Of a DNA stretch of 64,000 bases, positions 3,001 to 26,271 are shown one piece after another. The notes below the pieces were generated by a model. The model did no database searches and was not told where the DNA came from. It worked only from the letters and a program-made list of their open reading frames with translations. Source of the stretch: Morinoia aosen (taxonomy: Eukaryota > Arthropoda > Malacostraca > Amphipoda > Talitridae); assembly GCA_030386875.1 (NCBI GenBank), contig CM059571.1, forward strand, positions 24,050,355 to 24,114,354, in the 5' to 3' direction. The position numbers and the translations under genes were made by a program. Position 1 is the first letter of the stretch, and every line of letters begins with the position of its first letter.

Positions 3001-5209
3001 CAGCACAGAGCTGCGGTTCAACTGCTACAATTCGCTAAGATTTATATATTCATCCCTGCTTCAATGCCTCTGCAGGCGTTCAGACCATAGGGACACTAGA
3101 TTTCACAATGAATCAGAAGTTGACAGACGGAGATGTAATAAGGCATTGTAGCTAATATTTTGATTTCGATTTGAAATATTGATGCACTTTATCGAACGTT
3201 AGCTGTGAGTAACTTTCTGATCGCAGGGCAAGATTTCGTAGCCGCTTCTGATTTACTGAACTACGACAAAAGATTTCCCCTTTGGGTAATTAAACTAATG
3301 CCATCGGGAGAAATAAATCATTCCAATTCTGAAAGCTTGGGTAGCCTTGTCTTGTTGTATGGTCTTAACTTCATTCGGAAGTTGTCCTAACTCATTAATG
3401 GGGAAATGAGAAGAAGTGTCTTCACTTCACTAAAAATAGTTTTAAAATTAATTATTGAACCAAGTTGAAGAAACGTCATCATTCTTGACGAAGAGAGGGG
3501 ATTTGTACCTATATTAACTGTGAAGGGAAGTTAAAAACCTACAGAACAAAATTATTCTTTTACCTCTTTTCTTTTCAACAAGTTTTAATCAGCTTTGCCA
3601 CAACTTTGCTAATCTTAATCTGCTCTCCTTACTAGCGAATTTGCCTCCTTGCCAGAGACACTTGGAGTAAATCAGCTCGCCCAGGATCCTAAATAGACTC
3701 TACTTCCTACCCAGTAAGTGGGGCCTCTTTAACAGTCTGGGCAAAGTTGCATCACGTATGAATTCTGTTGGAAAATAAAAATGCACTAATTAAATCATGC
3801 AGAGAATGGAGAACACGATAAAGGAAAAAATCGTGTAATTTATTTTCCAATCTGTAGAAGGACAAAGAAATGCAAAAGCTACTCAGAACTTGCAACATTC
3901 ACATTTTGCCAAAAAAAATTACATCGAATATTGTTTACTCTGTTATTTTAAACACCTTCTTTGTTGAATACTTGCGCAAAAGATGTATTTTAATTAATCA
4001 TCACTGTGACATTTATATTCAGAAATATTGCAGTAAGGGAGTTAGTTTCATAACGGCTATATTCTTAGAAACTCGACAGCAAACCAGAGATACACTCGTA
4101 TGAGACTGCACTAATTTCGGGTGTACACCTCACTATAATGACATGAAAATAAATTAATCAATTTTTCTCAAAAATTCCGTTACGAAGTCAGCTTTTATGT
4201 ATTTGTTTTCTGTTCACTGAGCTACACTATTATTTGGTACATAAAAAATTAGGAATAAAAATTTGAATTTGCGTAGTTATTCATATGAACTCAGAGTTAA
4301 AAATGAGCACATCATTCAGGCCAGCTGTACAATATTAAATAACTCGAACAATTTCAGGAAACTAATGTAAACATAAATACATCGCAGCCTGTGGGCTCAT
4401 GAGTCTAGAAAAATTTGAGCGACTTTAAATCTTTTTTCTGCCAAACGCATGTGTATTTTTACAATTCAGACAAAAGAATATAGCTAATATATAATACTCA
4501 ATAATATTATCAATGTGTGTGAAAGGCGTCTATGGCAACCTATGAGAAAATAAGCAAATTCTGAAGTGAATCACAGTAAATAAAAGCAAACTTGGATTTT
4601 GAACTTGGAACTTTTTAAGCTTATAAAGCAAACATGCTGGTATATAACTGAAAGTTTTCGTTTGACACAGTTTGACATTTTAGTCAACATTTTCTTAATC
4701 AGATGTCTCGTTGTTGTTAATGTCACCTTCATAGTAAAGGTTTACTGTTCCGTTTTTCTGTGGTGGAAAATAGTGATAAGAAACAATGTCTTGTTTATTT
4801 TGTTTTTATTTAGTTTGGCTCAACTTCTTTATTTTCTCACCTTTTATTTATCTAGTAATTTAAGAGCATGTTAGTTTCAGGCCTACTTATGTTTGAAGGC
4901 CGTGTAGATGGCGTATCGTAAATACTAATATGTGTGAATTTTAGGAATTTGAACCACCAAAAAGATAATAATTTTGAGTACTGTCTTTTGAATAATAAGG
5001 GTGTATTTGCTTATTTCTATTCCTCGTCAAGCAGTCATGGTAGTCAGCCTGAGCTTGAATTTAGCGCCGAATGTCAGAATTTTCTTCAGTATTTAGTATT
5101 TAGTGCATATAAATGTTCTAAAAGGAATTGGGTAGTAATCAGACAGCTCAAGAATTTTTAGGCTTATGAATAAATCATTTGAGGGAACATTAATTGTAGT
5201 CTAAATTGA
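1..5209. other. AT-rich non-coding region, no gene recognised
   Basis: I see no coding region with recognisable homology here. Short open frames (for example a hydrophobic one at 4599-4874) have no motif and look like chance. Simple-sequence stretches occur at about 1600-1625 (AT/GT) and 2078-2215. A GC-richer patch at about 880-1080 resembles nothing I know. This could be intergenic or intronic sequence. Confidence 0.6.
2078..2215. repeat. CA/CATA-rich degenerate microsatellite
   Basis: The stretch is dominated by interrupted cacaca, catacata and acacgta words over about 140 bp. It is a decayed simple repeat with no coding potential. Confidence 0.6.
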
Positions 5210-7790
5210 AGATAACTTTTTTCTATGAGAATAAATAATTGTTCAGTTTTAATTTCGGCTGCGTCATGCCAGGTTTCATTGTCGTATTGAATATACGGAT
5301 TGATCAGGGCGTTCTAAAGGATTTTCGTACCTCTTTCGGCAGTTTGACTCTGTGCAAAATTCCCATGGATACGAAGAATTTTGTACGTATATTTGTTGAA
5401 TAAAATTTTTGCGAGAAATGTTTCCTTGTCGAGTTATTCTCAGAAATTAGCAGTCGTTTGTTTTTTTTAATTTTTTCACTGCTTATCAATATAATCGGAA
5501 ATGGAGTTTCTTGTTATGCGAGAATAGTACATGCTTAGTTTTGTTGACGTTCATACTGATGCTAAATACAACGAACGAAGAGAAAAGCATTTTTAATTCC
5601 TGATATACTGTTTACCGCGTCTTTTGGGGGAAGCTTAATAACAATGTGCAGCCATATACGCGAACTTATGAACTGATAAAAGATGTTGATATCACAATAT
5701 CGTTGATAGAGATAAAAAATAGAAAAGGTCCGTGAGCAGATTTATGCGGGACTTCATGGGTTATATGTCTTGCTGCTTCAAAGTAGAAATGCCGCTTACT
5801 GCTATACATTTGGTTGGCAGCTTGAGGGGTAGGATTTGAACTATTCCTAAGGAAGTCCCCTTAGACTGAAACAGTATAGTTCAGACATAAGTATGTTGTG
5901 ATCTTCTCACAGTAATAAATTTTTAAGTCAAGGAAGATGGAGAGTTATGAGTTTCCCTCATCAATACTTGAATATAGATATTGTAAATGATTTTAAATGG
6001 ATTAATTCGTTGATTTTTGGGATTGAAACCCAAATTGCGTGTCATAGATAAAGGAATTACACATATTCTACGTAGGAAAAAATATAATTTGTTTAGCTTT
6101 TTTCAAACATCTTACTAAAGGTCATTATATATATATATATATTATATAATTACTCTACCTTGGTAAGATAGAGCAATTAATTAAATTAGTAAAATAGAGT
6201 AATTCAGTAGGAGTAATTTTTTCAAACATCTTTCTAAAGATCAGCAACGTATAAATTGTTCTTTAATTAATGGTGGAAGTTATGTCATCGCTTTTGAAGA
6301 TCGGAGTAACTCATACAACTTTAAATCAATTAGAAAAGGGGAAAAAATAAAATGGATATGTTCATAATGTCGACATGAATAGGGGAAACTAGAGGAGCTA
6401 TATTTTCGAGAACTTTAATTGAAAATGTATTTTTTCCCCTTGATTTGTTCTTTAGTGCATAAACGGACTCGAAAACCTCTTAAGTGTTTACTGTAGCTTA
6501 GAACGAGAGGGGGGTTTGATTTTAAGTCTGCAATGATACGTAATTAAAGGAATTATTTACACTTTTTCTGCTATATTTCCCCCGATACTAAGAGAGTAAT
6601 TACTGAAGATATCTGCGATGACTTCCATAACATAAACGACTACAGTAACATGTGCGAGAGTTTTTTGTTATCTGATGATTATTTTTCGGACTTTAAACAG
6701 AACACAAAAGATCCTCCATCTTTTTAGCATCATTTTCAAACTCGGGGAACTTTTCAAGGTAATAGTTTATTAGTTTACTTTTCGACGTTTTACTTCAGCT
6801 GGTGACATAATTTCTGAATCTTAGGCACATTTCAAGAGTAATGTTTCCTTCACGTCGTAAAATTATGAAAGTCGATCGTTTTTTTCATATTAGAAATAAT
6901 TTCTGTGGTTATCCTGGGTGTGCTTTGGGAGTGACTGTAAGGATTTTAAATGGACAGCATTGGATTTATGTCTTATTTAAATGTCTTGGTATATCAGTCA
7001 GTGATGGTTTTTCGACATTGGTCTTATTTAAAATGTGGTACAGGCTGGTCTCCCATAAAGTTTTAAGTGTGTCACTGAAGGTTAATGAAGTTACGCGACG
7101 GTACGAGAAGGTCTGGATTGCGATGAAATTTTTTCATGAAAGTCATTATTTTTTATTGGAATATAAGGAAATGATCTGATGTGTCCAAAGTTATCAGTCC
7201 GTTGAAAATACCTCCTTGGTACATTATAAACGTATTAGAGAGGTTAAGTCGGCAGATATTGTAGCTGGTATACTACACATCAGGGGGAAGAAGGATTTTG
7301 ATTGCATCAAACTTAAAAGTTTGCAGTTGTTTCGCAATTTTCTATGCTCAAACAAGTTCAGGTTAAAGCCTCCGCAAGTTTCGTCATGGTCGCTTTATTC
7401 AGATCTTGGTTGTGTTAGTTATTTCGCCAATGAAAGCCTCTTGCACTTCAGAGGTTGGCCTGTAAATTGTTCCTAATGATTGACCATTCATTGTATTTGG
7501 TTTTTGTTGCAGTGAAATGAGTTTCAACGCAGACAAGGTTAACTGTCTCTTTAGGAATAATTTTAGCATCCAGGAATGATTAAGTCTGCTTAAGATGAAT
7601 GCACTTACGCTACCATCACGTTTGTCATTTTTTCCAACACGATGGAATGGTCTGTTATTCGGTATGTTTTTCATGTTAATATTTGCGCCATTCAGCCAGC
7701 TCTCGGTGAAGCAGAGTACATAGAAATTAGAGTTTAACTTAGTAACTACGGAGTTTATTTCGTCTATTTCAGAGAAAATTCACAAACAAT
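5210..7790 (-). pseudogene. decayed non-LTR retrotransposon (endonuclease + reverse transcriptase)
   Basis: Read on the minus strand, conserved LINE motifs appear in the right order but in shifting frames with many stops. An APE-type endonuclease comes first: CFTESWLNG near 7690-7740, HRVGKNDKRDG near 7620, TIYRPTSE near 7460 and SDHFLIFQ near 7160-7195. Reverse transcriptase follows: QFGFQSQKSTN near 6030, SIFLDLK near 5925, VPHKSAHGPFLF near 5740, VNKTKHVLF near 5540, MGILHRVKLPKEV near 5340-5390 and NPYIQYDNETW near 5270. The order EN then RT and the wording of these blocks fit the Jockey/CR1-like group of non-LTR elements; the clade is not fixed. No 5' ORF1 or 3' tail was found. The copy is dead and old. 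Confidence 0.7.
6126..6150. repeat. TA microsatellite
   Basis: A short run of alternating T and A lies inside the decayed LINE. Confidence 0.6.
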
Positions 7791-10700
7791 GACATCATAG
7801 TAGACACATACCTTTTTCCATCTCTACTGGAGCATTGCTAAAATTTAGGTATGGACTGTTTGGTGTGAGCAGTGCTCAGAGTCGTTTAAGACAAGATACA
7901 TGGAGGTAAATAATATTACGAGGGAATTAAAAACTGGGAATATTTAGTTTCGATCAAACATCATCCGTGGCAATACACGAAGAGACGAAAGTAATGCTAC
8001 AAGTAGCAGACGCAACAAAAAATGATGCTTAAAATACGAGCAACGTAGGATACAACAGCAAAATAACTAAAATGATGTTCGTGCTCGTTCACTTGACTAA
8101 GGATGGTTTCTTCCGCCTAAGGACGCCAGCAGAGGCTTATCCTCGCGAGCGCAGTCAGAGGTCAGGTAGAGGAGGTCACGTATTTGCTCGACACATCCGG
8201 TGATCGGGACAGCGGTGTTGTATTCTGGATGTGATCATGACAGTTGTAGCGCTCCATTGCAAGAGTTTTCCCTTTAGCACGTAGTATTTCGGTGATAATT
8301 TAGCTGCTCGGATTTTTGACGTATGGAGAAGGAAAATAAAATAATGAATCACTCTAATCATATCGTTATTTCATTTTTAATGAAAATGTGCGATATTGCA
8401 TTTATGTAATATGAAAAAATTTTAACAGAATAAAGATACCCTGTTTTTTGGAAATCTGAGGAACAGTCTTGATGAGAACAGCAGCAATTTGATGGTTCAG
8501 TCAGTGAATACGCTGCTTTGACAAAATGTTTTCTATTTTTCTGATGTTTAGTGAAGAGAAATTCATACAAAAAGCACTTTTTAAAATCGAACAGGGACCA
8601 TGTAGCTTTAAATTTGGGCCCACCTCAGGTGTAAAATTTGTTTTTACCTCATATGATTTTCTAATCTTAAGTAGCTTATAATCTTTTTCCGTACTACATT
8701 TTTACCATACTTTTTAAATAAAGGCCTAAAAATTTTGTACGAGGAAAATACAGGTCATTATTTCGCATAAACATTTGCGTGTATTATCTACTTCAATTGT
8801 TCGTTCATTAATTTAACATTAAAACGCCGCATCAAATTTCTCTTCACTTATTATTGGTGAGGCCCAGCCCAATGAACTTGTTGAAAGCTTTTTCCACTTC
8901 TCGTGGATTCCTCTTTTTTCAATTTTTCTGTTTAGATCTTTTGCTAAAGCTTGGTATTTCTGAACAACAAACACGGGCACTAAGCAATGATTTTTTCACT
9001 CTAAGGTAACAAGCGAATTATTTCGTTCGTGCCATGTCATATTGAAGCTACGAATGCACTCCTCGTTCACTATATTCTCGCCTGCGATGTGCGAGTACAG
9101 GTCACTATACAACTGTTACTCTTCAAGAAAAGGAGCGCATTAAAAGTTAATCAGTTGAAAAGTACGTACAATTATACTGAGCTTATTGACAGGGATGTTA
9201 GGAGACTATGGTTGAAGTGAAGTTCATTGAATTTCTATTGAATAAAGGGATGGAAAATACCGCATGGTGAATGGAACTGCTTGAAGCGTAATCATCGTCT
9301 AGAGCTTAACTTGCTACACGCTCAGAAAAGTAGATAACGATTTTTAAGAATGACACTAGCTCTTCATGAAAGTGGCACTCACATATTATAACCGAACATA
9401 ACACGTAATGAGTAAGTGCAAAGATAGAATGATCAAAAGGCTAATATTCTTCAGCGTTATCAATAATATCCTGGTAAGTAGGAATGCAGGGGCGTTACAC
9501 AGGCAGTGCTGTTTAGAAGAGTTCTTTAAGGCTTGGTAAACTTTTTCAGGCTCAAGTACATCTTTGCGAACCTTGAGAACCGTCTTGAGAAGCCCTGGAA
9601 CATTCTGTGTGGACTCAGTACTTTCTTTGAGGTCGAAGTAACATTCCTGGAGAGCGGCAGATGTTCTCAGTTTCACGATGTTGAGTAACCAACATTGAAA
9701 GATAAGCACATTATGATGATATGAACCTAGATGTTACGAAGCAGGCAATTTTTTTGTCTGCGAATGATTGAAATTTGCGCCGCTTGATCGCGTAGACCAG
9801 ATGGTAGCCGCCAAAGTTCTGTCTTAGCTGGAATAGCTTCTTGACGCACAACTAAACATCAAATTTTCATGTTAACAGGTCATTATGAATGAACATACAT
9901 GAACACTATATCAATGTTTTGAAGGAAAATTAGACATCATTCCATGAGCCCTGACAATAAGCTGTGAACTACAATATGCATAGATATTTTAGTACCTCTT
10001 TGTCAAATAAAACAGCCTGCACTCTTTGGAAAGACGGAAGAACTTACATACTGTCAGCGTTCACGTATTTGCCTCCATTTTATAACCAGCGGCCGTGAAA
10101 TTCTTTAGAGGACCCTGACAGCGTACTCAAGCTTCTGCGTTACTTGAAATGTAAAAATTCTTCCACTGCTCATTTACTTTGTCTCAAGCCAAAGTAAGAA
10201 AATAATTACACTCAGTTCTCAATAGAAAAGTTCTCAATAAAAAATTGAGGAGAAGTGGGGAAATTTTTCACAAGCAAACTAATTAACACAGCCACGGAAG
10301 GAATGATGGCAGAACTTGAGCAGCGAGCTCTATTTTCAGCAGAGAACAGTATCTAAACGTTTCCACGTTTTCCTTTCCGTTTATATGAAGTTTTGGGTGC
10401 AGTATTTATTTGTTTTTCCAAGCTTGTGCCCAAATAAGAGAGAACATTTTTACTGTTTTGCTCTCATTCGTTTTCAACCACTCTCATGGAAATGAGAATA
10501 TTTGGTGTAGTGTTTCTGCCAATGAGATATAAGGAGCATTATTTTGAGGAATTTTAAAAACTAGTAGGCTGAGTTTATGTATCAACTTCCGAGAATAAAC
10601 AGTTCTTCCCGACACCAAACTAAGCTAAAATGAGCATTGTACATTGTAGTCTCTTTTTCAATGACGTTGCTGCGCTGAATATTTTAACGTTCTAGCAAGC

Positions 10701-11400: not shown

Positions 11401-11696
11401 AGGTTAGGTTAGGTTAACATCGGCATCTTTGGGATGCTTTATTTCCAATCAAGCCTGATACATATGATCTTAGCATTGGTTTTTCAAATGTCTTATAACT
11501 AACCCTATATATAGGACACCATGACGGTTCCCCCGTAAAGCCGGTACCCATTTCCGACACCTGGGTCGAGTGGGGTACTGTGCTTGAGCTTTCCCTTGAA
11601 CCCAACGGGGAAAATCTCCGCGCCAGCGCTGGGTACGAACCCGCGACTTCCAGCATACAAGTTCGATCCCTTAACCGCTGTGCCACTGAGAGCACT
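11401..11696 (-). mobile_element. tRNA-derived SINE, copy 1
   Basis: On the minus strand the element starts at about 11696 with a tRNA-like head. The A box TGGCACAGCGG is at 11675-11685 and the B box GGTTCGTACCC at 11631-11641, 33 bp apart as in an internal Pol III promoter. A unique body follows, with AATAAAGCATCC near the end, then a tail of AACCT-type repeats at 11401-11417. It is about 90 % identical to the copy at 26547-26846. It could be transcribed by Pol III but encodes nothing; short frames through it are accidental. Confidence 0.85.
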
Positions 11697-11892: not shown

Positions 11893-11897
11893 GTGAG
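11893..11897. repeat. target-site duplication gtgag (left)
   Basis: It matches gtgag at 14337-14341 and flanks the LTR element on both sides, which fixes the element ends. Confidence 0.85.
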
Positions 11898-12528
11898 TGT
11901 CAGGCTATTGTCAAAAATGCCGACTTGTGCTTATATAATTTAACCGGAGGGAAAATAATTCTCCTCGCATAACTAAGCTCTCGTATCACAGATACTTGAG
12001 TAGCCTACTTCCATCACGATCCTTAAAATTTGAAAAAGAAAAAAGAAATACTGGAGAAGAAAAACTTCAAAGCTTGATTAGCTCGCAGCCAGAAATTCTT
12101 CGGCTCTAAAACTTCAAAGCTTGATTTTTATATCGGCTTAAATTTCAACTGCTGGAAAATAATTCGCCTCCTGAAAACCTGTGGGCAAGCCCCAACTAAT
12201 AAATTAAGTCGCCAAAACCTGACTTTCCATTTTCCCTGAAGATATCAGGAAGATCCTTCCGGGATAAGAAGACTCTGAAATTTCGGCTCCCAAGAAGGAC
12301 CAATCTAGTTTTCAATCGGGCTGAAACAGGACTAGCCCACCTAAATAATCAATTCGCTGGCTCCCAAAAAGGACAAGCAAAAATTGCAACTATCTACAAT
12401 TTGGCACCCAAAGAGGATATTGCCAAAACCAAATATCTAACAATTTGGCGCCCAATGTGGATACGCCACAACCTTACTATTTAAAAAAGTGGCGCCCGAA
12501 CAGGGACTGCCATACCTACTATTTAACA
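11898..12528 (+). repeat. 5' LTR of the non-autonomous element
   Basis: This 631-bp copy matches 13706-14336 apart from a T/C change near 12023 and an A/C change near 12486. Its last 170 bp are a row of PBS-like units (see 12357-12544). No TATA box or polyadenylation signal stands out clearly. Confidence 0.9.
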
Positions 12529-12544
12529 AAAGTGGCGCCCGAAC
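12357..12544 (+). repeat. tandem PBS-like 43/44-bp units in U5
   Basis: Units start at 12357, 12401, 12445, 12489 and 12532. Each opens with a PBS-like word: TGGCTCCCAAAAAGGAC, TGGCACCCAAAGAGGAT, TGGCGCCCAATGTGGAT, TGGCGCCCGAACAGGGAC and TGGCGCCCGAAC. Units closer to the working PBS resemble the tRNA-Lys complement better. The fourth unit holds an 18-nt match to the tRNA-Lys PBS, yet lies inside the LTR, as shown by the matching right LTR and the TSD. A more diverged word, TCGGCTCCCAAGAAGGAC, sits at about 12283-12300. Confidence 0.8.
12533..12544 (+). promoter_or_regulatory. primer-binding site, tRNA-Lys type
   Basis: TGGCGCCCGAAC lies 4 bp after the LTR end. It is complementary to the 3' end of tRNA-Lys, the primer known for several Gypsy-group elements and retroviruses. 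The match stops after 12 nt, whereas the copy inside the LTR extends to 18 nt. Confidence 0.75.
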
Positions 12545-12621
12545 TCAGCGACCCGAACTCTGGAAAGCTGCATCTAAGAAGGACTTTGAATCCTGAAAAC
12601 TCAAGAAAAATAACAAAAATA

Positions 12622-12758
12622 TAAAAAGGAACTTTGACTTCCTGAAGCAAAATAAAAAGGAACTTTGACTTCCTGAAGCAAAATAAAAAGGAACTTCGAC
12701 TTCCTGAAGCAAAATAAATAAAAAGGAACTTCGACTTCCTGAAGCAAAATAAAAATAA
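12622..12758 (+). repeat. minisatellite A, about 30-bp unit, 4 copies
   Basis: The unit contains AAAAAGGAACTTYGACTTCC followed by TGAAGCAAAAT. Copies two and three are near perfect; the fourth is preceded by a small AAAT insertion. Confidence 0.85.
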
Positions 12759-12763
12759 AAATT

Positions 12764-12937
12764 ATTACCGCCGGACGGGAAGCCAGTACCGACGAACGGG
12801 AAACTGTTACCGCCGATCGGGAAACTATTACCAACGAACGGGAAATTATTACCGCCGAACGGGAAGCCAGGACCGACGAACCGGAAACTATTACCGCCGA
12901 TCGGGAAACTACTACTGCCGAACGGGAAACAATTACC
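12764..12937 (+). repeat. minisatellite B, 21-bp unit, 8 copies
   Basis: The unit is close to ATTACCGCCGAACGGGAAAC plus one base. Units 1-3 resemble units 5-7, which suggests a later duplication of an 84-bp block. Because 21 is a multiple of three, a 7-residue repeat stays open on the minus strand; that frame is not a gene. Confidence 0.85.
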
Positions 12938-13143
12938 AAAAACTCAATGGCTTGTCAGCCCAAAAACTCAATGGCTTGTTAGCCCAAAAACTCAATGGCT
13001 TCTCAGCCCAAAAACTTAATGGCTTGTCAGCCCAAAAACTCAATGGCTTGTCAGCCCAAAAACTCAATGGCTTGTTAGCCCAAAAACTCAATGGCTTCTC
13101 AGCCCAAAAACTCAATGGCTTCTCAGCCCAAAAACGCAATGGC
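12937..13143 (+). repeat. minisatellite C, 24-bp unit, 8 copies plus partial
   Basis: Each unit contains CAAAAACTCAATGGCTTGTC and ends AGCC, with few substitutions. Twenty-four is a multiple of three, so open frames of 8-residue repeats run on both strands and are artefacts of the array. Confidence 0.9.
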
Positions 13144-13330
13144 GACCAGATCAACGATCAAGCAAGGCCCAGATCAGCGATCCACAATGGCGACCAGATC
13201 AGCGAGCGATCACAATGGCGACCAGATCAACGATCAAACATGGCGTCCTGATCAGCGAGCGATCAAGCATTGGTCAACTAGATCAACGATCAACATTGGT
13301 GACCAGATCAGCGATCAACAATGGCGACCA
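13138..13330 (+). repeat. minisatellite D, degenerate GATCA-rich repeat
   Basis: Irregular units share the words AATGGCGACCAGATCA and GCGATCA, with spacing varying around 40-50 bp. It runs on directly from array C. Confidence 0.75.
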
Positions 13331-13358
13331 TCGACTATATCTGCAACAAGCTGATTAA

Positions 13359-13586
13359 CTAAACCCACGACTTAAACGATGGGCCTTATACTTCAGCCTC
13401 TTCCAATTTAAATCGAAACATATTCCGGGAGCGGAGAACCATCTCGCCGACTTCTTGTCCCGTACTCCCAACCAACTAGAACTGGATTCAGCCTCTTCAG
13501 AAGAGAAAGGACCAGACTGTTCCTGTGCTGCATTTAAAAAAAAAATGTTTCCAATTCTAAAAAGAAATAGTCTTAAGTATTCTTAA
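13359..13586 (+). pseudogene. relic of pol, RNase H C-terminus
   Basis: The frame reads RLKRWALYFSLFQFKSKHI, then PGAENHLADFLSRTP, the typical end of Gypsy-type RNase H just before the integrase. A stop precedes it at 13356-13358 and the frame ends at 13584-13586. It is the only coding remnant left in the element and shows that the parent was a Gypsy-like pol element in plus orientation. Confidence 0.75.
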
Positions 13587-13705
13587 ATTAGTTAGACGAT
13601 TATATGTGCCATTGCATTAATTTATATTCTAAAAAGCACAATCGACATCTGGCTTAATAGCATGTTCGCGACATTACTTGCAGTAATGTCTTCTCAGTAA
13701 GGGCG

Positions 13706-14336
13706 TGTCAGGCTATTGTCAAAAATGCCGACTTGTGCTTATATAATTTAACCGGAGGGAAAATAATTCTCCTCGCATAACTAAGCTCTCGTATCACAGA
13801 TACTTGAGTAGCCTACTTCCATCACGATCCTCAAAATTTGAAAAAGAAAAAAGAAATACTGGAGAAGAAAAACTTCAAAGCTTGATTAGCTCGCAGCCAG
13901 AAATTCTTCGGCTCTAAAACTTCAAAGCTTGATTTTTATATCGGCTTAAATTTCAACTGCTGGAAAATAATTCGCCTCCTGAAAACCTGTGGGCAAGCCC
14001 CAACTAATAAATTAAGTCGCCAAAACCTGACTTTCCATTTTCCCTGAAGATATCAGGAAGATCCTTCCGGGATAAGAAGACTCTGAAATTTCGGCTCCCA
14101 AGAAGGACCAATCTAGTTTTCAATCGGGCTGAAACAGGACTAGCCCACCTAAATAATCAATTCGCTGGCTCCCAAAAAGGACAAGCAAAAATTGCAACTA
14201 TCTACAATTTGGCACCCAAAGAGGATATTGCCAAAACCAAATATCTAACAATTTGGCGCCCAATGTGGATACGCCACAACCTTACTATTTAACAAAGTGG
14301 CGCCCGAACAGGGACTGCCATACCTACTATTTAACA
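13706..14336 (+). repeat. 3' LTR of the non-autonomous element
   Basis: It matches the 5' LTR over all 631 bp with two visible differences, and includes the 18-nt tRNA-Lys PBS match at 14298-14315. It is followed directly by the TSD gtgag at 14337-14341. Confidence 0.9.
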
Positions 14337-14562
14337 GTGAGCAAATACGAGCAAATAAATAAAATCTATTTGAAACACTTATGGAGGTAGGAACTTCGTT
14401 TGCTCTCCATTTTTCAAAACACATTGTTTATAACTGATATTTATCCAAGATTTATTATTCACTATTGCGCACCGCCCGTCAAAAATGACGGGATTCAATA
14501 CCTTTCTTGAACAAAATTAATTGTCTAGATGTGGATGACAAACAAACATATCCATCCTAACA

Positions 14563-17825: not shown

Positions 17826-18543
17826 GTTCCCATCATCACTATTATAAAAGTAGCCGCGTCCGTCCGTCTGTGTGACCCCCTCTTCGAATCGATAGCTTTG
17901 ATAGCAACAAGGATAAAGCTTAAGAAATACAAGAAATCCTTCGATTGTATTAATTTCTGTGGCGATTCAATTCCCTTTCACTTGGATTATTAGGGTATCC
18001 AGAATACGCAATCGGCTTATTTTTACAAATATAAATTTTCTTAGTGGCTTTCTCTGTTGAAATTCAACATGTTGCTTTGATATTTTTAGTTGATAATGCG
18101 AAAAAAATGTTTTAAATTTGTTTGGCCAGTAACCTGGCTACCACTTTGTATAAAGCCAAAGATTTTGGAACTTGAGTAATCGTTTTCGAAATTTGGATTT
18201 TCTTGATAAGCTCCGTACAGATAATAGAAGGCATATCAGAATAAAATTCCGGCAAAAGAGGCCACCACGGACAGAAATGTGCCCAACAGCAAGAGAGAAG
18301 TAGCAAGACATCGACAGCAAGAAAAACGCCGAAGACGATTGGATGAACAACGCGAAATGGCAAGACGAAGCAACGATGCTCGCCAACGAGAAGCTAGAGC
18401 TAAATTGACCCTTGAACGGCGTTTAGAAATTCTACGGAATAATGCAGAGCAACACCGAGTAGCTAGAGAGAGCTTAACACATGAAACAAGCGAGGGAATT
18501 ATTCGGCATAACGCTGGACAACATCGAGTGGCACGAGAGAATT
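17826..18543 (+). pseudogene. Helitron-like relic, basic repeat ORF, 5' part
   Basis: From ATG at 18279 a frame encodes a very basic, Arg/Glu-rich protein with a repeated unit of about 20 residues: EILRNNAEQHRVARE, then GIIRHNAGQHRVARE. Such arrays of R, E, N and A precede the core of some Helitron-encoded proteins, and the leader at about 17830-17880 (TATTATAAAAGTAGC, then TCCGTCCGTCTG) resembles Helitron 5' ends; both points are from general knowledge. The frame is cut at 18543 by the Gypsy element, and related units resume at 27300. No Rep or helicase domain is present, so the assignment is tentative. Confidence 0.45.
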
Positions 18544-19266
18544 TGTTATATCCTACCTTTTCAAGATCGTTCGATATGATTAAATTTTCTCTTTTAGGAT
18601 AAATCGTTCGAGTGAAATAAATCTCTTTTCTCAATCTCAGTGAAATCTCATGATTGGCTTTCCAAATAAGGCGCAATTATAGTAGGCATTGAAACACACG
18701 TTATATGTGGCCACACAATTTACTGTTATAAACGGATATCACCAATATGCCGGGGATTTGTTAAAACCCGCAAACGTATTTAGCTACAAAGAGGTAATCT
18801 TACGCACACTCGTGTGAAGCGCTGGTGCAGGTTTCGTCGGATTCGAAGTAGCCTCGTTTACTTTATTTGATTAACCATTTGATTTAAACGTGAAGTCACA
18901 AGTGGAAATTTATACAATGGCAATGTCCAGTACGCCGAGCTGGACTCTATTTCAAAGACTCAAACAAAGACGGCGAATACGAGGACCTTCAGCTACAATG
19001 ACGCGTACTAGAATGATCCCTCCTGACCCTAAGTAGACTCTTAAATAGAAGCAGTTACCGCCGCTCATGCATGAACGTTAGGCAGCAGCTAACGGTTACG
19101 AAGGTGGCGGTTTGAGCAGACGCCGTCCCCTCTTTGCTGATCTGGCTTTCTACAGCTTTTCTGCTGAATTGCAAACGGTCTTTCAGGGCACAGAGTACGA
19201 GGCTCTTCCTCGCTGATGCAACCGTCGTTCGTGTATGGCGCGCCGTTACATAGAGGGTACATAACA
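18544..19266 (-). repeat. 3' LTR of Gypsy 1
   Basis: On the minus strand it starts TGTTATGTACCC and ends ATATAACA. It is about 723 bp and nearly identical to the right LTR once the SINE is removed. A purine tract, GACGTGGGGAGGA, lies just inside it at 19268-19280. Confidence 0.9.
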
Positions 19267-19267
19267 A

Positions 19268-19280
19268 TCCTCCCCACGTC
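19268..19280 (-). promoter_or_regulatory. polypurine tract of Gypsy 1
   Basis: The minus-strand purine run GTGGGGAGGA directly precedes the 3' LTR, where plus-strand DNA synthesis is primed in LTR elements. Confidence 0.65.
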
Positions 19281-20913
19281 GTTTTTAGTAATATCCTCCT
19301 GGATATTGTCGCAGTTGGAAGTATCCGTTTACTTGAAGTTTTGAGAAATCTCATCCTTCATTGCAAGGGAAGATTCAGACAAGCCAACGAGATTTGTGCT
19401 TCTGACGCACGCTGAAACGAAGATCTTAAACAAGCAATGATGAAAAGTCGATATCGGGATATCCTTATCCTTCTCCATCATCGAAGACCTTCTCCCGCGA
19501 CTGATGATATTCCTTGGAGGCCAATCCGAGGATATCTGGAGGTGAATACCGCCCAAAATATAAATATGTCGAGTGTAAACTCGATTTTGTCATTACTTCC
19601 GCATGCATGTAGTTATTTTGAACGTATTAGTGTTCAACGGTATCTTCTTAAATTTTTCTTTCCGCCTTAGCCGAATCCATGCTTTGGCGTATATCGAAAC
19701 GGGGGGGAAGCTTCACCCTCGCTGTGATGTCACGCCACTCTCCAAACTGTAGTTCCGTCGATAGTAGATTGCGCCACGTTCTCGTAGTCGAGGTAACCCT
19801 CACGCGTTGCATCCAGTCGCTCAGCCCTTTAACTCGCGTCGACCCTGTTGGTCGTAGTATTTACGTCCGAGTGAGTGCGCTGTCTAGCCATGCCATATCA
19901 ATGGAGCGCGGTGTTGCCAGATTTCTCGTAGACTGTGCGAACAGTGCGGTCCTGCCAGACCCGTGCCATGCACACGTCCCAGCCCAAGCGTAGCGCTTGC
20001 TCGCAGCAGCCGCTGTGAGCCTGCCATGACCTTGAGTCAGAGCAGCTGGGATGCTGGAGCAGCCACTGTTGTGTTCACGCACGCCTCTGTAGTGCTGGTG
20101 TCGCTGTGCAGCCGTATCACAACAGCCTTACGTATAGCTGCAACAACCGTATTGAATTAGTTTCTGGACATGGTAATTATCTCCCATGGATTCCTTTCAA
20201 GATTTCCCTCTTTGCAGCACGTCTACTTGCTTTAATTTCATCCACCGGCATGTACAATTGGTATATCATTTTATTCCTAACTCAAAAGGAATCCATTCGG
20301 AGAGTTTAATACGTAACGAAAATAAATGCAAGGTAAATGAAAATGATTAGAAACACACGATATGACATACAATATTTCAGATAGCCAGTGGGCTGTAAAG
20401 GAAAGTTCCCACGTATTAGCACGCATTCCTGGGGAAGAGCTATGAAAAGACATACGAACGGGTTACAAATTTGACATCGAGTAAAATTTCTATCTGATTA
20501 ATGAGCATCATCAAGGTAAATACATAAATTGGTTTATAAATCGACATTAATCATGTAATACATCCTACCCGCATTTCGCTGGAGAAATCATTTAATTTTA
20601 AGTCGAAGCACTTATCCTAAAATTGAAATATGAAAGAAATGTTAAACCCGAGGGAAATGATTAGGAAACATCCTTAACATTAAACATGATACATTTGGGA
20701 GTGAAATGAGATAATCATTATTGAAGTTTTGGGACGTGGAAAATCAGTTAATTCTAAGTCAAAGCACTTATCCTAAATTTGTAATACGAAAGAAATGTTA
20801 AACACAAGGGAAATGATTAGAAAACATTCTTAATATTAAACAGAGTACATCTTTAGAATGAAATGGAGCAATCATCATCGAAGTTTTGGGACGTCCTTGC
20901 GAGACACAAATAA
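19281..20913 (-). other. long 3' non-coding region of Gypsy 1
   Basis: About 1.6 kb lies between the integrase stop and the polypurine tract. It has no open frame with an envelope-like or other recognisable product. About 19680-20120 is clearly GC-richer than the surroundings, and 20585-20895 is a tandem duplication. An eroded third ORF or a captured sequence is possible. Confidence 0.55.
20585..20895. repeat. tandem duplication, 156-bp unit
   Basis: Copies 20585-20740 and 20741-20895 share AAGCACTTATCCTAAA, AAGAAATGTTAAAC and GAAGTTTTGGGACGT, with about 85 % identity. It lies just downstream of the integrase stop of Gypsy 1. Confidence 0.8.
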
Positions 20914-22608
20914 TCATACATAGTTTGGGCGTCTCGTCCGATTTCTCAGAGAGTACCTAGGAATCATTCCTTCATTTCTCTGGCTCGTGCTTTGCACTGC
21001 AGGAATGTCGTTCGTCTCTGCCCCTTGCAGTTCGTCTTTTTCTTCGTCGTTGTTGAAAGGGAAGGCCATGGCGTCGTCAAGATAAGCTCTTTTGACTCGG
21101 TTGAGGTGAACCTTCTGCTCTTTTCTGTCTGAGTAGAGGCCTTTGATAGTGATGTTATTTCCATGTCTAGAAGTAACTCTGTACGGGCCTCTGAACCTCG
21201 ATGGGAAGGCTCTGTCTTCGACACGCCCTGCTTCATTCCTCAACATGATAAGGTCCCCAGCTTGGACATCACATTCTTTGGCCGTTCGATTGTAGATCTT
21301 CGCCGCAGCTTGCCTGGCCGCCTCAGAGTTTTTTCGAACAGCAGCAAATGCTTTGGACAGTCGGAGCGAAACTTCTGTTGAATAATCTTGGTCACATGCG
21401 TAATTGATGGGCTGCTCCTTGAAAATGTCGTGGTAAGGAAGGTTAGCATCTCTACCGTAGAACAAAAAGAACGGCGTGTCTTTAATCGCAGTCTGATAGG
21501 AAGTATTTACCGCGAGAGTCGCAAAGGCAACGCTCTCGTCCCAGCTAAATTTATCTTCCGCGGCCAGGTGAGAAATTGCAGTTTTTAAGATGCCATTGAG
21601 TCTCTCACAGCATCCATTTGCCATCGGGTGGTAAGCAGTAGTCGTTTGTGATCTCGCTTTAAGATTCTTGCAGACGTCCTGGAATAACCTATTGGTAAAT
21701 TCGCTGCCTCTGTCACTGACGATCGTATTTGGGGCAGAGAATTTTCCGACGTATTGGACGAAAGCTCTGGTGACAGTATCAGCAGATTTATCTGTAAGGG
21801 GATAAGCATCAACATATCTTGTGAAATGATCCACGATTGTCAGGAGATATTTATTGCCATCGTAACTAACAGGCAATTCAACAAGGTCAACAGCAACTCT
21901 TTCAAGGGGGTACGAGGTTTCAGGAAATTTACCTAAGGGGACTTTAAATTGGCCCTGCCATTTCCTTCGTTGGCACTGCAAACATTTCTTCACGTGGTCT
22001 TTGACGTCACGAATTTGATTAATCCAGAAGAATTTATCTCTGGCACGTTCAAGAGTTCTCAGGAAACCCATATGAGCGGACAAATCGTTGTCATGGCTCA
22101 GCTTTAAAGCTACCTTAACTAAAGACTTAGGAATGACTATCTGTACATTACTTCTACCGTTTCTGCGCTTCTTTCTCGACAATCTACACAGGACATTGTT
22201 CTCATCAATAATATATTCGTCAATGTTTGAAATCTTAGTATCACCCAAGTCATTTCCAGTTAACAAGTTTCTTACACCAGACCAAAGTGAGTCCTTTTCT
22301 TGCTCTGAAACAACATCATCCAAGTTCAATTGCTTTGCCTCGACGGCAACACTCTTATCACGTTCACTATACACGGGTGGAGGGCACACGTCGTCGACGG
22401 GAACATCTGTCGCATTATTATTAGAACAAGGCTTAATTCTAGAAGGAACATCAGCATTAATTTTAGGATCATTCTTATTACTACAGTTGGACTCAGCAGT
22501 GTCACCGATAGCATTGACGATTCTTTCGGATCTAGACAAATAGTCGGGCAAGTGGTGTTGCGCTCCTGGCTTGTACCGAACAGAGAAATTATACTCTTGA
22601 AGAAGCAA
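20914..22608 (-). CDS. Gypsy 1 pol, 3' part: RNase H C-terminus and integrase
   Basis: This 564-codon frame starts with the end of RNase H (YKPGAQHHLPDYLSRS, residues 12-27). The integrase zinc domain follows with H172, H179, C209 and C212. The catalytic core has D241 in VAVDLVE, D299 in VSDRG and E335 in CERLN, a D-X57-D-X35-E layout. A C-terminal domain of about 100 residues and a basic tail follow. Integrase inserts the element cDNA into host DNA. The frame lacks its own natural start: it is the continuation of the upstream pol frame, separated by a frame change. The catalytic residues look intact. Confidence 0.93.
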   Translation of the reverse strand: MLLQEYNFSVRYKPGAQHHLPDYLSRSERIVNAIGDTAESNCSNKNDPKINADVPSRIKPCSNNNATDVPVDDVCPPPVYSERDKSVAVEAKQLNLDDVVSEQEKDSLWSGVRNLLTGNDLGDTKISNIDEYIIDENNVLCRLSRKKRRNGRSNVQIVIPKSLVKVALKLSHDNDLSAHMGFLRTLERARDKFFWINQIRDVKDHVKKCLQCQRRKWQGQFKVPLGKFPETSYPLERVAVDLVELPVSYDGNKYLLTIVDHFTRYVDAYPLTDKSADTVTRAFVQYVGKFSAPNTIVSDRGSEFTNRLFQDVCKNLKARSQTTTAYHPMANGCCERLNGILKTAISHLAAEDKFSWDESVAFATLAVNTSYQTAIKDTPFFLFYGRDANLPYHDIFKEQPINYACDQDYSTEVSLRLSKAFAAVRKNSEAARQAAAKIYNRTAKECDVQAGDLIMLRNEAGRVEDRAFPSRFRGPYRVTSRHGNNITIKGLYSDRKEQKVHLNRVKRAYLDDAMAFPFNNDEEKDELQGAETNDIPAVQSTSQRNEGMIPRYSLRNRTRRPNYV

Positions 22609-22658
22609 AGCCCACCTTGAAATACGGTGATTACCTGTTTTATTAGCAAAAATGAAAG

Positions 22659-24812
22659 TTAATTGGGGCGATGATCTGTCACCACGACGAACTCATTTAA
22701 GTACAGGTACGCATCATAATGCTTGATTGAATCGTGAATGGCAAGAGCTTCGAGTTCTGTTGCAGAATATTTAAGTTCGTTTCCCTTTAATTTCCGGCTA
22801 TAGTATGCCACAGGTAACTCGATGCCGTCGTGCATCTGAAGTAATGCTCCACCAATTGCAATGGCCGAAGCATCAGTGTGCAACACAAACTCTCTCTGAA
22901 AGTCAGGAAATTTAAGTATAGGCGCAGACACAAGTTTATCTTTCAAATCATCGAAAGCTCGCTGATGAACGTCCGTCCATTTAAATGAGTTCGTCTTTTT
23001 TGTTAGCTCAGTAAGAGGTGCCGCGATGTGTGCGTAATTTTGAATGAATTTTCTAAAGAATCCGGTTGAACCAAGGAACCTCTTTACCTCTTTAATATTC
23101 CTAGGTCTCAAAGCATCTGCCAAGGCCTGGACTTTCGCAGGTCGGGGGGTGAGTCCCTCCGAACTAACTTTGATTCCAAGAAAGGTTACGCTACTCGCAG
23201 CAAATTGGCATTTCTTGAGACTTAGTTTGAAACCTGAAGCAGCCGTTTGAAGCAACGCCTTACCCAAATGTTCGACATGAGTCTCGAAATTTTTTGAATA
23301 GATGATGATGTCGTCAACATAACAGAACAGAAATTTTGAAATGAATGGAGAAAAAGCCATATTAACTGCTCTTTGGAGTGCAGCTGCAGAAGTGATAAGA
23401 CCCTGAGGTGAACGGCAGTACCTGTAACTACCTGTAGGCGTTCTGAAAGCGGTAATATCACGGCTCTCTGGGGCCAATTCGATCTGATGATAGGAACTTC
23501 GCATGTCTAGAGTTGTGAACAAGTTTGAGCCCTTAAGACTTTCTAAGGTGTCAGTCATATTCGGGATTGGAAAAGAGTCCTTCCTACAAATCTTATTGAT
23601 AAGTCGGAAGTCAACTACGATTCGATGTGAACCATCACTTTTACGTACAGCTAAGATTGGGGAAGACCAAGGCGAAAAACTTGGTTCAATAACTTTTTGC
23701 CTAAGCATCTCCTGGACATGCTCTTCAACCAATTGCTTTGTAGCGTGAGGGACTCGATACTGCGGTGTATTGATAGGATTGTTTCCCTGAACGTCTAACT
23801 TATGCACAGCATTTCGCGCATGACCAATCTCGTCTCCAACCGCGAACGCATTCCTGTGTTTGTTAATTAAATTTACAAGGGTCGTTCTCTGATCTAAGTT
23901 CAAATGTGACAAGTCAACATCGTCAATCATCTGGTTGAATTCAGGTTCATTTCGTTTCTCTGCGACTGGCAACAGTTCACTGTTAGGCAGTAACTTAGAG
24001 TTGCACTGACTCAAGGGGCTTTCAGTCAGAGCGGGCGCTCGTCTGGCGTCATGCACTGTCGCCACGGCATCGTAGGCCTCGCGATGTGGCGGTGCTCTAG
24101 CATCACTCTCACTCTCGTCTGAGCCAGGCTCTGGGTCCTCAATGGCAACATCTAAACTAGCACAAATTTTATTTCTAGGCACAAGAACATTCTTATCATT
24201 ATAATTTACAAAGACTATTGGCACGGTACCATCACGGACAGTGGCTAACGTACGAGGCACTGCTATTCCTTTGCACGTAACGCTCTGTTTTAGAACGACT
24301 GTTTTTCCATTCATGTGCTTGGGAACTCTCAAATAGGAGTGACATAACGTGCCTCCTTCAACAGTCAGATCATGTGACATTCTCGCGACACTGAATGATG
24401 CATCCTCAGATTGTTTCACAAAATTTACTGAATTAGAAGCAGCAACTGATTGAAATGGGTAAATCCTATCATTAATTCTCACGTGACCTTTCTCGTGCTG
24501 ACTGTATTTTATTTCAACACCGAATCTCTTAAGGAAATCTCGGCCTATCAAGACAGCTCCGGGGAAGTAAGAATCTTCCACAATGATAGCGGAATGGCAA
24601 TACTCAACATCACCTAGTTTAAATTTCAAGTCAATCGTACCTCGAGTGTGGAGATTATCTCCATTAACAGAACAAAGAACTTTAGTGCATCGTTTAATTC
24701 GGGGTGGAGTTTGGAATAATTTGCTAATTACACAAGATTTCACAAGAGTCACGGAAGAGCCTGAATCAACGAAAGTTGAGCATTTTTTCTGTTCAACATT
24801 TAATAAAATCAC
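22659..24812 (-). CDS. Gypsy 1 pol, 5' part: protease, reverse transcriptase, RNase H
   Basis: This 717-codon frame has the aspartic protease motif VDSGSSVTL (DSG at 16-18). Reverse transcriptase spans about residues 345-540, with YVDD at 498-501. RNase H begins at about 640 with HTDAS (D647) and E686. It ends at a TAA at 22659-22661 inside RNase H; the sequence that should follow lies in another frame at 22608. The frame opens at the gag stop, where GTGA overlaps the two, so pol would need ribosomal frameshifting from gag rather than its own AUG. Confidence 0.93.
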   Translation of the reverse strand: MILLNVEQKKCSTFVDSGSSVTLVKSCVISKLFQTPPRIKRCTKVLCSVNGDNLHTRGTIDLKFKLGDVEYCHSAIIVEDSYFPGAVLIGRDFLKRFGVEIKYSQHEKGHVRINDRIYPFQSVAASNSVNFVKQSEDASFSVARMSHDLTVEGGTLCHSYLRVPKHMNGKTVVLKQSVTCKGIAVPRTLATVRDGTVPIVFVNYNDKNVLVPRNKICASLDVAIEDPEPGSDESESDARAPPHREAYDAVATVHDARRAPALTESPLSQCNSKLLPNSELLPVAEKRNEPEFNQMIDDVDLSHLNLDQRTTLVNLINKHRNAFAVGDEIGHARNAVHKLDVQGNNPINTPQYRVPHATKQLVEEHVQEMLRQKVIEPSFSPWSSPILAVRKSDGSHRIVVDFRLINKICRKDSFPIPNMTDTLESLKGSNLFTTLDMRSSYHQIELAPESRDITAFRTPTGSYRYCRSPQGLITSAAALQRAVNMAFSPFISKFLFCYVDDIIIYSKNFETHVEHLGKALLQTAASGFKLSLKKCQFAASSVTFLGIKVSSEGLTPRPAKVQALADALRPRNIKEVKRFLGSTGFFRKFIQNYAHIAAPLTELTKKTNSFKWTDVHQRAFDDLKDKLVSAPILKFPDFQREFVLHTDASAIAIGGALLQMHDGIELPVAYYSRKLKGNELKYSATELEALAIHDSIKHYDAYLYLNEFVVVTDHRPN

Positions 24813-25642
24813 GAGGGAAAAGCTTTTCGGTCGCTGTGAAAGTTTTTTGACTTTACTGCGGCGATGTCACCATTCTGATTCGGACGGCCATTGAATTTGC
24901 GTTGATAATTATTAAATGGGCGAGCATTTTTGTGTGAAGCACTTTGCCATTTGAATGGATTTTTAGGCTGGTACGCTCGCTTTTGTGGCGAATTGTATTG
25001 ATACTTCTCAACTACTGCATCACTCTCGTGAATTCGTCTTTTGCGGCTCAACAAAGATCTCTCTTCGATCAGAGATTCCTCAATTGATCTCGCTTTATCT
25101 AAGAGCTTGGTCACACTCTCAGGGTCAAAATCATGAGGTAACTTTTCACTGATCTTGGGATTCATATTTTTAACAATGGTAGGAATGAGGATTTTTTGTG
25201 TTTTGCTATCCTCGTAGTGCCATTCTGGACCGAATACGTCCTTCCAGCTAGCAAGAACGCGAGTTGCAAAGGCATTTACAGTCTCATCATTTTCTTGATG
25301 CAAATTAAATAGAATTTTGTGGACTGTCTTTCGGTAATTCATGGCTCCCTTGTAAACAGAAACAAGCCAAGTCTTGACATCTTCCAGTGTGATCAATTGG
25401 TCGGACTTGAGAACATAAGAATCCCAAGCCTTCCCAGTAAGAGCATTTTTCAAATAACGACATTGCAAGTCTTTATCATTAGTGTAAATGTCAACTCTGG
25501 TCTGGAAGTGTTTTAAAAATGAAGTTACACAGCCTTCACCATTAAATTTAGGCAGTTCAATTGCGTGATTTAAAGTGACAAAGCTACTTTGATTGTTCTC
25601 ACCATTGTTACTTTGATTACTTTCATTATCGTCCCCAGCCAT
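24809..25642 (-). CDS. Gypsy 1 gag
   Basis: This 277-codon frame starts at an ATG in good context (ACCATGG). It has the Gag capsid-like pattern FLKHFQTRVDIY, CRYLKNALTGKAWD and VNAFATRVLASWKDVFG. Gag packs the element RNA in a cytoplasmic particle. There is no CCHC zinc knuckle; the C-terminal 70 residues are instead rich in K, R, N and Q and could bind RNA. It ends at a TGA at 24809-24811, overlapping the pol frame. Confidence 0.85.
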   Translation of the reverse strand: MAGDDNESNQSNNGENNQSSFVTLNHAIELPKFNGEGCVTSFLKHFQTRVDIYTNDKDLQCRYLKNALTGKAWDSYVLKSDQLITLEDVKTWLVSVYKGAMNYRKTVHKILFNLHQENDETVNAFATRVLASWKDVFGPEWHYEDSKTQKILIPTIVKNMNPKISEKLPHDFDPESVTKLLDKARSIEESLIEERSLLSRKRRIHESDAVVEKYQYNSPQKRAYQPKNPFKWQSASHKNARPFNNYQRKFNGRPNQNGDIAAVKSKNFHSDRKAFPS

Positions 25643-26271
25643 GGTTTCAACTGATAATTAGGGCAAAATTGGCGAAGCAAAATAGATTCACAATGAACAC
25701 TGATAGCAATTTTAGAGTTTCAAATTAGAAGTTTAAATGCAATATTTCGTACAATATGTTTCCAAATACACAGACATAATTGAGTTTTTTCGCACAATAA
25801 GTTTCCAAATGCACAGAAATAAATGAATCGCCAATAGCATCAACAACAGTAATAGAAAATAGGGTCATAATGTGGATAAAATGGGGTTTTGAATAGGCAC
25901 AATAATCATATTAGAAAGGTAAATGGGTTAAATTACGCAATGGGAATGAGACAATAAATGGGTAAAGCATCAAAATAGTAAATATGGTACAAGTTCACAC
26001 GAAATTTTTAGAAATAAATCAATACACTGACACAAGGTGCAAATAATGACAATAAATCACATGGGAAATACACAAGTAAATCAATACAATGACATAAATT
26101 ATGTGAATAGAATGGGTACAATGATGAGTGAAATAAACTTCCGAATCATGTTGCCATTCATGTTACGTTAAACATCTAATTTTTTTTTAATAGGTAGCGT
26201 GGCAACAGCGGTCTCTTGCGGAGACGTTAAGTTTTAATGGGTTATGATCCCACACTCGCTGCCCACCATTT
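25643..26271 (-). other. 5' leader of Gypsy 1
   Basis: This AT-rich non-coding stretch lies between the 5' LTR and gag. Adjacent to the LTR, the minus strand reads AAATGGTGGGCAGCGAGTG (26253-26271), where the primer-binding site should be. The primer tRNA could not be assigned. Confidence 0.6.

Follow-up and report, generated by a model that had tools for sequence, protein, structure and literature searches.

U5 regions made of primer-binding-site modules and LTR ends that vary by whole modules in retrotransposons of Morinoia aosen

Introduction

How does an LTR come to contain, close to its own 3' end, a faultless copy of the primer-binding site (PBS) that should lie outside of it? In reverse transcription U5 ends at the tRNA primer, and the length and ends of LTRs are usually taken as constants of a family. 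The window that we analysed, a stretch of 64,000 nucleotides from the amphipod Morinoia aosen, holds an element whose U5 carries a series of PBS-like words, one of them matching a tRNA-Lys perfectly. The comparison of this element with its relatives in the same genome shows that here LTR length and LTR ends shift instead by whole modules, apparently with the choice of primer, in young copies of a single genome.

Results and discussion

An LTR retrotransposon with PBS-like words in its U5

The element has the attributes by which an LTR retrotransposon is recognised: direct LTRs with TG...CA ends, which differ at 2 positions (631 bp each), a TSD (gtgag) and a PBS at 12533. Its features are given below in the positions of the window; scores are matches to the complement of the 3' end of tRNA-Lys(ttt) or tRNA-Lys(ctt), hereafter Lys-ttt and Lys-ctt, and L-numbers designate other loci of the genome.

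11893..11897, plus strand: 5' TSD, GTGAG
11898-14336, plus strand: window element, 2,439 bp, LTR retrotransposon with LTR pair and TSD
11898..12528, plus strand: 5' LTR, 631 bp, TGTCAGG...TTTAACA
~12285-12315 and ~12316-12357, plus strand: two strongly decayed PBS-like modules, seen by eye and not scored as PBS by the tools
12358..12401, plus strand: module 1, word TGGCTCCCAAAAAGGACA, 12/18 to Lys-ttt
12402..12445, plus strand: module 2, word TGGCACCCAAAGAGGATA, 12/18 to Lys-ttt and Lys-ctt alike
12446..12489, plus strand: module 3, word TGGCGCCCAATGTGGATA, 14/18 to Lys-ctt and 11/18 to Lys-ttt
12490..12532, plus strand: module 4, exact 18-nt tRNA-Lys(ttt) PBS, tail TGCCATACCTACTATTTAACA (end of the LTR at 12528) and AAAG spacer
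12529..13705, plus strand: internal region without long ORF, largely minisatellite arrays (periods of 31, 21, 24 and 25 bp)
12533..12550, plus strand: working PBS outside the LTR, 12 nt exact and then TCAGCG, 13/18
13325..13705, plus strand: what is left of an autonomous relative's 3' end, 85% to L012 6236-6619 (element orientation)
13706..14336, plus strand: 3' LTR, 631 bp, same four modules, words at 14166, 14210, 14254 and 14298
14337..14341, plus strand: 3' TSD, GTGAG

The two decayed modules (12285..12357) have counterparts with clearer words in other copies. No ORF of at least 180 aa is found within 11898-14336, and neither Rfam (gathering threshold) nor ARAGORN gives a match in the window. 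The 40 nt upstream of 13706, inspected by eye for a polypurine tract, show no clear purine run. Several minisatellite arrays fill the interior of the element at 12621-13330. One frame of 13325..13705 resembles by eye the C-terminus of RNase H. As these last 381 internal bases are so similar to the end of L012 and the remainder is mostly minisatellite, we read the window element as a probable non-autonomous derivative of autonomous relatives.

PBS-like words follow each other in register at 12358, 12402, 12446, 12490 and 12533, with spacings of 44, 44, 44 and 43 nt. The initial annotation had put five units of 43/44 bp at the end of the LTR: the five words and their register stand, but only four modules are inside the LTR and the fifth PBS is just outside. 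The fourth word, TGGCGCCCGAACAGGGAC, scores 18/18 and is the exact complement of the 3' end of the host's own tRNA-Lys(ttt). The host genome has 26 places with the 3' end of tRNA-Lys(ttt) and 25 with that of tRNA-Lys(ctt), and ARAGORN reads the anticodons ttt and ctt in one example each (L106, L107). Within the window, 18/18 matches to Lys-ttt are limited to 12490 and 14298, one in each LTR, the next best being the 13/18 of 12533. Since the TSD gtgag is present at both ends of the element, the module at 12490 lies inside the LTR and the PBS at 12533 outside of it, which bears out the earlier reading of the fourth unit as an 18-nt tRNA-Lys match within the LTR.

The similarity to the tRNA had also been said to rise step by step toward the working PBS. 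The scores contradict this: in order they are 12, 12, 11, 18 and 13 of 18, and the working PBS (13/18) matches Lys-ttt less well than the word inside the LTR (18/18). Across the 69 loci with a recognised leader (see below), the mean Lys-ttt score is 14.3 at the working PBS (n=69) and 17.0 at the word just upstream, or -1 (n=69), a value biased by the fact that 60 of the 69 loci were mostly picked for an exact word at -1; further upstream it is 12.1 at -2 (n=59), 11.7 at -3 (n=42) and 11.9 at -4 (n=29). Mean scores in nine loci that were not picked for tandem PBSs are 15.0, 11.2, 11.9 and 11.9, from the working PBS upstream, and the exact Lys-ttt word stands at -1 in 0 of 9 unselected loci with a leader. 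A steady gradient of PBS-likeness with module age, absent in the window and across loci, was rejected.

Taken by their scores, the two oldest words of the window do no better than the best background 18-mers, 12/18 being also reached at 40560, 41551 and 60407 (minus strand). Shuffles of the last ten bases give p 0.026 for the word at 12358, 0.686 for that at 12402 and 0.148 for that at 12446, so that module 3 does not beat shuffles in these bases despite its 14/18 to Lys-ctt. The case for these older words of the window rests on their register and on their relatives. In other copies, some older words, TGGCGCCCAACGTGGATC, match the Lys-ctt complement at positions 1-15 and do beat shuffles (p 0.002). 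Compared with shuffles, 9 of the 26 distinct words found at -2 or beyond attain p 0.05, and only 4 of those lack the GAA of Lys-ttt; decay has gone too far in many older words for individual proof as PBSs. An order in which Lys-ctt would be the older and Lys-ttt the younger primer was dropped, since decayed Lys-ttt-like words, GGGCCGAACAGGACTCGCC, are also seen by eye upstream of Lys-ctt-like words.

Related loci in the genome

We searched the genome of the window itself (1.99 Gb, 29 contigs) with four patterns, each accompanied by its reversed version as a control. TGGCGCCC stands 15-40 nt downstream of the exact 18-nt word at 94 places, several of them in one array (reversed, 0). TTTAACA followed after 1-5 nt by a 12-nt PBS word was found at 345 (reversed, 0); the exact word followed by TTTAACA at 104 (reversed, 0); and a Lys-ctt-like word behind an AACA end at 31 (reversed, 0). 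Tandem words are a minority, as they make up, by eye, 23 of the first 100 listed places with TTTAACA and a PBS, in 11 groups 42-45 bp apart. The viral contigs of IMG/VR contain 0 matches to two 12-nt PBS words 20-50 nt apart.

The sample used below totals 98 sequences including the window, and its counts leave out L001-L008. It is dominated by 75 loci (L009-L068 and L089-L103) that were picked for tandem PBS words through the search for the exact word and TGGCGCCC; L104 comes from 40 scored out of 1,208 candidates, and L069-L088 and L105 from the listing of TTTAACA with a PBS word. The last PBS is followed by a recognised leader in 69 of the 98 sequences, and none was recognised in the other 29. 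Long stretches were available for 21 of them (L009-L028 and the window), 15 of which have an LTR pair; no pair was used from L009, L010, L011, L017, L018 or L019.

LTRs end at different modules

A perfect 5-bp TSD with TG...CA ends was found in 14 of the 15 paired elements, L025 being the one that fails, and the 14 TSDs are all different. About 30 positions per side were searched for lengths of 4-6, with TG and CA required, for which we calculate a chance expectation of roughly 0.02 TSD per element. The TSD of L013 is weaker evidence, because the same satellite repeats surround this element on either side. The repeats of L013 are at 1-841, 3488-5237 and 5668-7800 and comprise the satellite of both flanks and, further downstream, a second array with a period of ~77 bp.

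In 14 of 14 TSD-bounded elements, the LTR ends 3-4 nt upstream of a PBS. Which PBS this is differs among them. Eight (L012, L013, L016, L020, L022, L023, L028 and the window) have an LTR that ends after at least one exact Lys-ttt module, as read in the 5' LTR; in six (L014, L015, L021, L024, L026 and L027) the LTR stops short of the first of two tandem PBSs, and a PBS-tail-PBS arrangement follows. This 8:6 split is no population rate, given that the presence of tandem PBS words was the criterion for choosing the 20 long loci. The module arrays of L012 and L014 are nearly identical and their leader is the same, and yet their LTRs end one module apart, with 0 mismatches within each LTR pair.

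The initial annotation had proposed to compare module number and TSD-defined ends among copies. Just as TSDs place the LTR end at different modules, module number varies, with 1 to 5 words in the 14 TSD-bounded elements and 7 and 16 in two solo LTRs. With a strict word pattern, which by eye misses a decayed word in L022 and in L024, we count one word per LTR in L021 and L027, two in L015 and L024, three in L014, L022 and L026, four in L012, L016, L028 and the window, and five in L013, L020 and L023. The solo LTR L048 (833 bp, TSD GCCAT) has 7 TGGCNCCC words and the solo LTR L046 (1,452 bp, TSD CTCAG on both sides) has 16; L053 shows GGCGG and GGTGG at its two flanks.

Within an element, word numbers of the 5' and 3' LTRs are equal in 12 of the 12 cases counted, 7 of which have no LTR mismatch; L024 and L026, in which the start of the 3' LTR was not located, are outside this comparison. 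One of the first eight LTR bases differs between the 5' and 3' LTRs of L022 and of L027. The LTRs of L022 have 11 differences, and its word is exact in the 5' LTR only.

One-module steps, exchange between LTR bodies and apparent rewriting of the PBS

Arrays also differ from each other by single modules. In an alignment of 17 sequences, L074 corresponds to the window array minus module 4 and shares its leader. L056 has one module more than L084, upstream variants and leader being common to both; its extra module is not a doubling of the end of L084, because its tail, GGCCCTAACAAATATTTAACAATT, differs from L084's own tail. A perfectly doubled module is present in both LTRs of L023. Two or more modules are present in 59 loci. 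The last tail and the one before it are at least 90% alike in 4 of these (L023, L029, L068 and L104), whereas in 14 the last tail has a counterpart at least 90% alike among the module tails of a different LTR body (shuffled tails give a mean of 0.13 and at most 1, over 100 shuffles). As the comparison with other loci is a best-of-many against one neighbour, only the 0.9 threshold and the shuffle control count here. Fresh self-duplication is a minority route. The earlier proposal, in which a downstream shift of the LTR end turned old PBSs into U5, is kept in its core idea and corrected in two respects: movement need not be downstream only, as there are elements of nearly identical array whose LTR stops one module earlier, and fresh duplication is not the main route.

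Leaders and LTR bodies, the latter assigned by short signatures, are combined in several ways. Body A is found with leaders I1, I2 and I3 (23, 12 and 3 loci) and body B with I1 and I2 (15 and 6), while C occurs only with I3 (4), D only with I2 (5), and one unassigned body with I3. Body-A copies are 96-100% like the window over the last part of the body, which runs from about base 164 or 190 of the LTR, as against ~68-90% for the upstream parts. The LTRs are mosaics, in which a 3' body part has probably spread recently over several upstream types, as this part is nearly identical in copies with diverged upstream parts (L009-L068 compared with 11898-12272).

PBS words and tails are likewise combined. 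The exact Lys-ttt word is found on the tail of an older module (at least 90% alike) for 9 of 74 distinct tails, against 0 in 30 shuffles. Seven of these cases are informative (L015, L038, L043, L044, L064, L066 and L099); L029 and L096 were left out because the older word is there the same word with one base changed. Two consecutive AATGTGG-type modules occur in 0 of the 98 sequences, and for this reason L015 and L099 are more easily seen as a Lys-ttt word put on module 3 of another element than as rewriting in place. At the working site, the paired leaders CAGAAGGACTACG / CAGGGACTACG and CTCAGCGACCCGAAC / CAGGGACCCGAAC suggest that the PBS has been rewritten. The pair CAGAAGGACTACGAATCC and CAGGGACTACGAATCC (L062, L066 and L076, with near variants in L077 and L100) looks as if a tRNA copy had replaced 18 nt, and so does the pair CTCAGCGACCCGAACTC and CAGGGACCCGAACTC (L047, L097).

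How the choice of PBS could set the LTR end

A reading that brings together the modules, the alternative LTR ends, the one-module steps, the exchange between bodies and the Lys-ttt words on old tails is that the PBS used sets the end of the LTR, and that modules are duplicated or captured during strand transfer. We consider this reading probable as a whole. In this group of Ty3/gypsy-type elements U5 is an array of modules. Each starts with a PBS word of ~18 nt, continues with a tail of ~20 nt whose end can serve as LTR terminus (often ...TTTAACA), and closes with 2-4 nt of spacer. Since LTRs end where the tRNA primer sits, an RNA with at least two PBSs can yield different LTR ends. Priming at a downstream PBS would make the upstream module part of each LTR in the resulting copy, and the LTR would grow; priming at the upstream module would leave that module outside, and the LTR would shrink. 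This alternative use of PBSs is well supported.

For the origin of new modules, the order of events and the strand-transfer step are what we infer from the arrays. Modules may arise through tandem duplication or, seemingly more often here, through recombination at the shared PBS word. In such a capture, plus-strand strong-stop DNA, whose last 18 nt are a copy of tRNA-Lys, would land on a PBS-like module in the minus strand of another element. With this landing site in place of the true PBS, the product would read LTR-PBS-tail-PBS-leader, as seen in 6 of the 14 elements. If the following round of copying then started from the last PBS, the module would be absorbed, which gives the form of the 8 of 14. 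Capture would need a minus strand extending beyond the PBS into U5, such as one copied from a second RNA. A minus strand of this kind is unusual. Gene conversion at the DNA level could be another route for the movement of modules, and plain tandem duplication seems to occur as well (L023, L089, L046).

Other explanations

Modules might instead be kept as RNA hairpins of U5 that serve packaging, dimerisation or the hiding of spare PBSs: TGGCN...N'GCCA would close the word, and the last PBS, without a GCCA partner, would stay open. Such an explanation is compatible with the choice of PBS rather than exclusive of it, and we find it doubtful. Modules give better folds in their first 26 nt than their shuffles do (z averages -1.90 for 40 Lys-ttt-type modules and -1.76 for 40 older ones), against a mean z of -0.05 for the working PBS with its leader (22 distinct sequences); however, the modules are related and not independent, the shuffles are single-nucleotide and the TGGCGCC word is palindromic. 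Base 5 can pair with the base before GCC, as A-T, T-A or G-C, in 45 of 65 distinct older GCC modules, but by our own arithmetic base counts alone lead to ~37 of 65, and 20 of 65 do not pair. There is no GCC at that position in 25 of 161 distinct modules, and 6 of 14 elements were primed at a PBS followed by GCC, which should have been closed. Hairpins as the reason why the last PBS can win are suggestive only.

It is improbable, in our view, that the array is an ordinary minisatellite, in which a 43-bp stretch including the PBS and the LTR end changes in number by slippage or unequal exchange, and the choice of primer is irrelevant. Perfect or near-perfect tandems do exist in L023 (two), in L089 (a run of near-identical 42-bp modules) and in L046 (alternating dimers), and the interior of the element is itself rich in minisatellites. 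Yet slippage alone does not give LTR ends that lie 3-4 nt before a PBS in 14 of 14 elements and at different modules of nearly the same array. The ratio of tails alike within a locus to tails matching a module of another body (4 against 14 of 59 loci) and the exact Lys-ttt words on old tails also speak against it.

Gene conversion between genomic copies after integration, rather than reverse transcription, could also have moved the modules. The mixing of tails and leaders among LTR bodies, and the contrast in body A between the last part of the body (96-100% alike) and the upstream ones (~68-90%), are what it would produce. Against it, arrays differ between an element's own LTRs in 0 of 12 elements, 7 of which lack any LTR mismatch, and equal arrays in both LTRs are expected if the array is fixed during reverse transcription. 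We regard conversion as an unlikely explanation of the whole. An artefact of assembly or alignment, to which short tandem repeats are prone and for which a single assembly was examined, is hardly credible in view of the many unlinked loci, the exact TSDs, the agreeing LTRs and the 0 matches for each of the four reversed control patterns.

Returning to the choice of PBS, a more far-reaching form of this explanation can be sketched, which is tentative and which we hold to be possible rather than probable. The LTR boundary would not be fixed for a family but would shift in both directions along a tape of modules written by tRNA, modules would be handed from element to element at the PBS word in the second-strand transfer, hairpins would shut spent modules, and the array would record which tRNA-Lys species primed which ancestor.

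Relation to known elements

L012 has a single frame of 1,569 aa with the order protease, integrase, RT, RNase H, and L024 has the same order over two frames, the protease matches of both being just under the Pfam cut-off. The RT-RNase H of L012 is of the Ty3/gypsy type, its best solved relatives being 7q5b_A (Ty3 Gag-Pol) and 4ol8_A. Among 5,020 related proteins, the best 120 have 30-65% identity and, where the organism is given, come from a pseudoscorpion, bivalves, echinoderms and a nemertean. Gmr1-like elements are described, in the available parts of two papers, by an integrase upstream of RT (PMC3587641, PMC8220671). With their integrase upstream of RT-RNase H, L012 and L024 have a gene order of the Gmr1 type; the window element keeps only the end after RT. 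U5 arrays of PBSs are not mentioned for Gmr1-like elements in those same parts (PMC3587641, PMC8220671).

In its size of 2,439 bp, its LTRs, PBS and TSD and its lack of a 180-aa ORF, the window element is also similar to TRIMs and other non-autonomous LTR elements, and it shares its 3' end with autonomous relatives. To our knowledge, a U5 made of PBS modules is not a known feature of TRIMs. The accessible text of PMC4558846 does not mention it for them, and PBS modules in LTRs are equally absent from the portions at hand of PMC3601003, PMC11302176 and PMC12371157. A literature search covering mainly open-access papers returned, in the texts it could reach, no LTR described with PBS modules. 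The kind of element is already known; the behaviour of the LTR is the new part.

The nearest likeness described, as far as the available part of the source goes, is that of HIV-1 in culture, which carried multiple PBSs, some of them for tRNA-Lys3, while a mutated PBS reverted (PMC1084362). There it is a laboratory anomaly, and that part of the report contains no absorption into the LTR, no series of modules and no genome-wide record (PMC1084362). In HIV and SIV, according to the accessible sections of PMC4549124, the plus-strand PBS is copied from the tRNA and the minus-strand PBS from the RNA, and the progeny can adopt the tRNA sequence. Our paired leader variants look alike, but the retroviral rewriting described in those sections concerns a single PBS in one place (PMC4549124), whereas here 18-nt words are also found on tails of old modules inside U5.

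These elements offer a natural counterpart to the multiple-PBS viruses from culture. Primer selection and strand transfer of the Ty3/gypsy type may become readable from genomic copies, with no need of a culture system. Tools that find or date LTRs may misplace the ends of such families or split them.

Other repeats in the window

Several other repeats surround the element. A dispersed repeat of ~300 bp is present at 11401-11696, 26547-26845 and 29835-30053 (minus strand), in copies 76-94% alike; it is SINE-like, with tRNA-like box A and B words seen by eye on the minus strand, and one of its copies interrupts an LTR of the element at 18542-27301. This element, on the minus strand, is by eye of the Ty3/gypsy type and has LTRs ~99-100% alike, three long frames and a 156-bp tandem duplication at 20580-20894. 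Also on the minus strand are a BEL/Pao-like LTR element at 31161-39689 (class by eye from the frames), with 567-bp LTRs (98%) and four long frames in 31884-37424, and a further Ty3/gypsy-type element (by eye) at 39867-45004, with 412-bp LTRs (99%) and three long adjoining frames. Inverted and direct repeats of ~110-145 bp, and one of 571 bp (76-88% alike), at 48114-49575 resemble a degenerate foldback element. A 241-bp unit forms a near-perfect tandem (~99%) at 58884-59365 and is 78% like a copy 4.6 kb upstream (54296-54644), and a pyrimidine-rich minisatellite with 16 copies of a 25-bp unit lies at 62134-62524.
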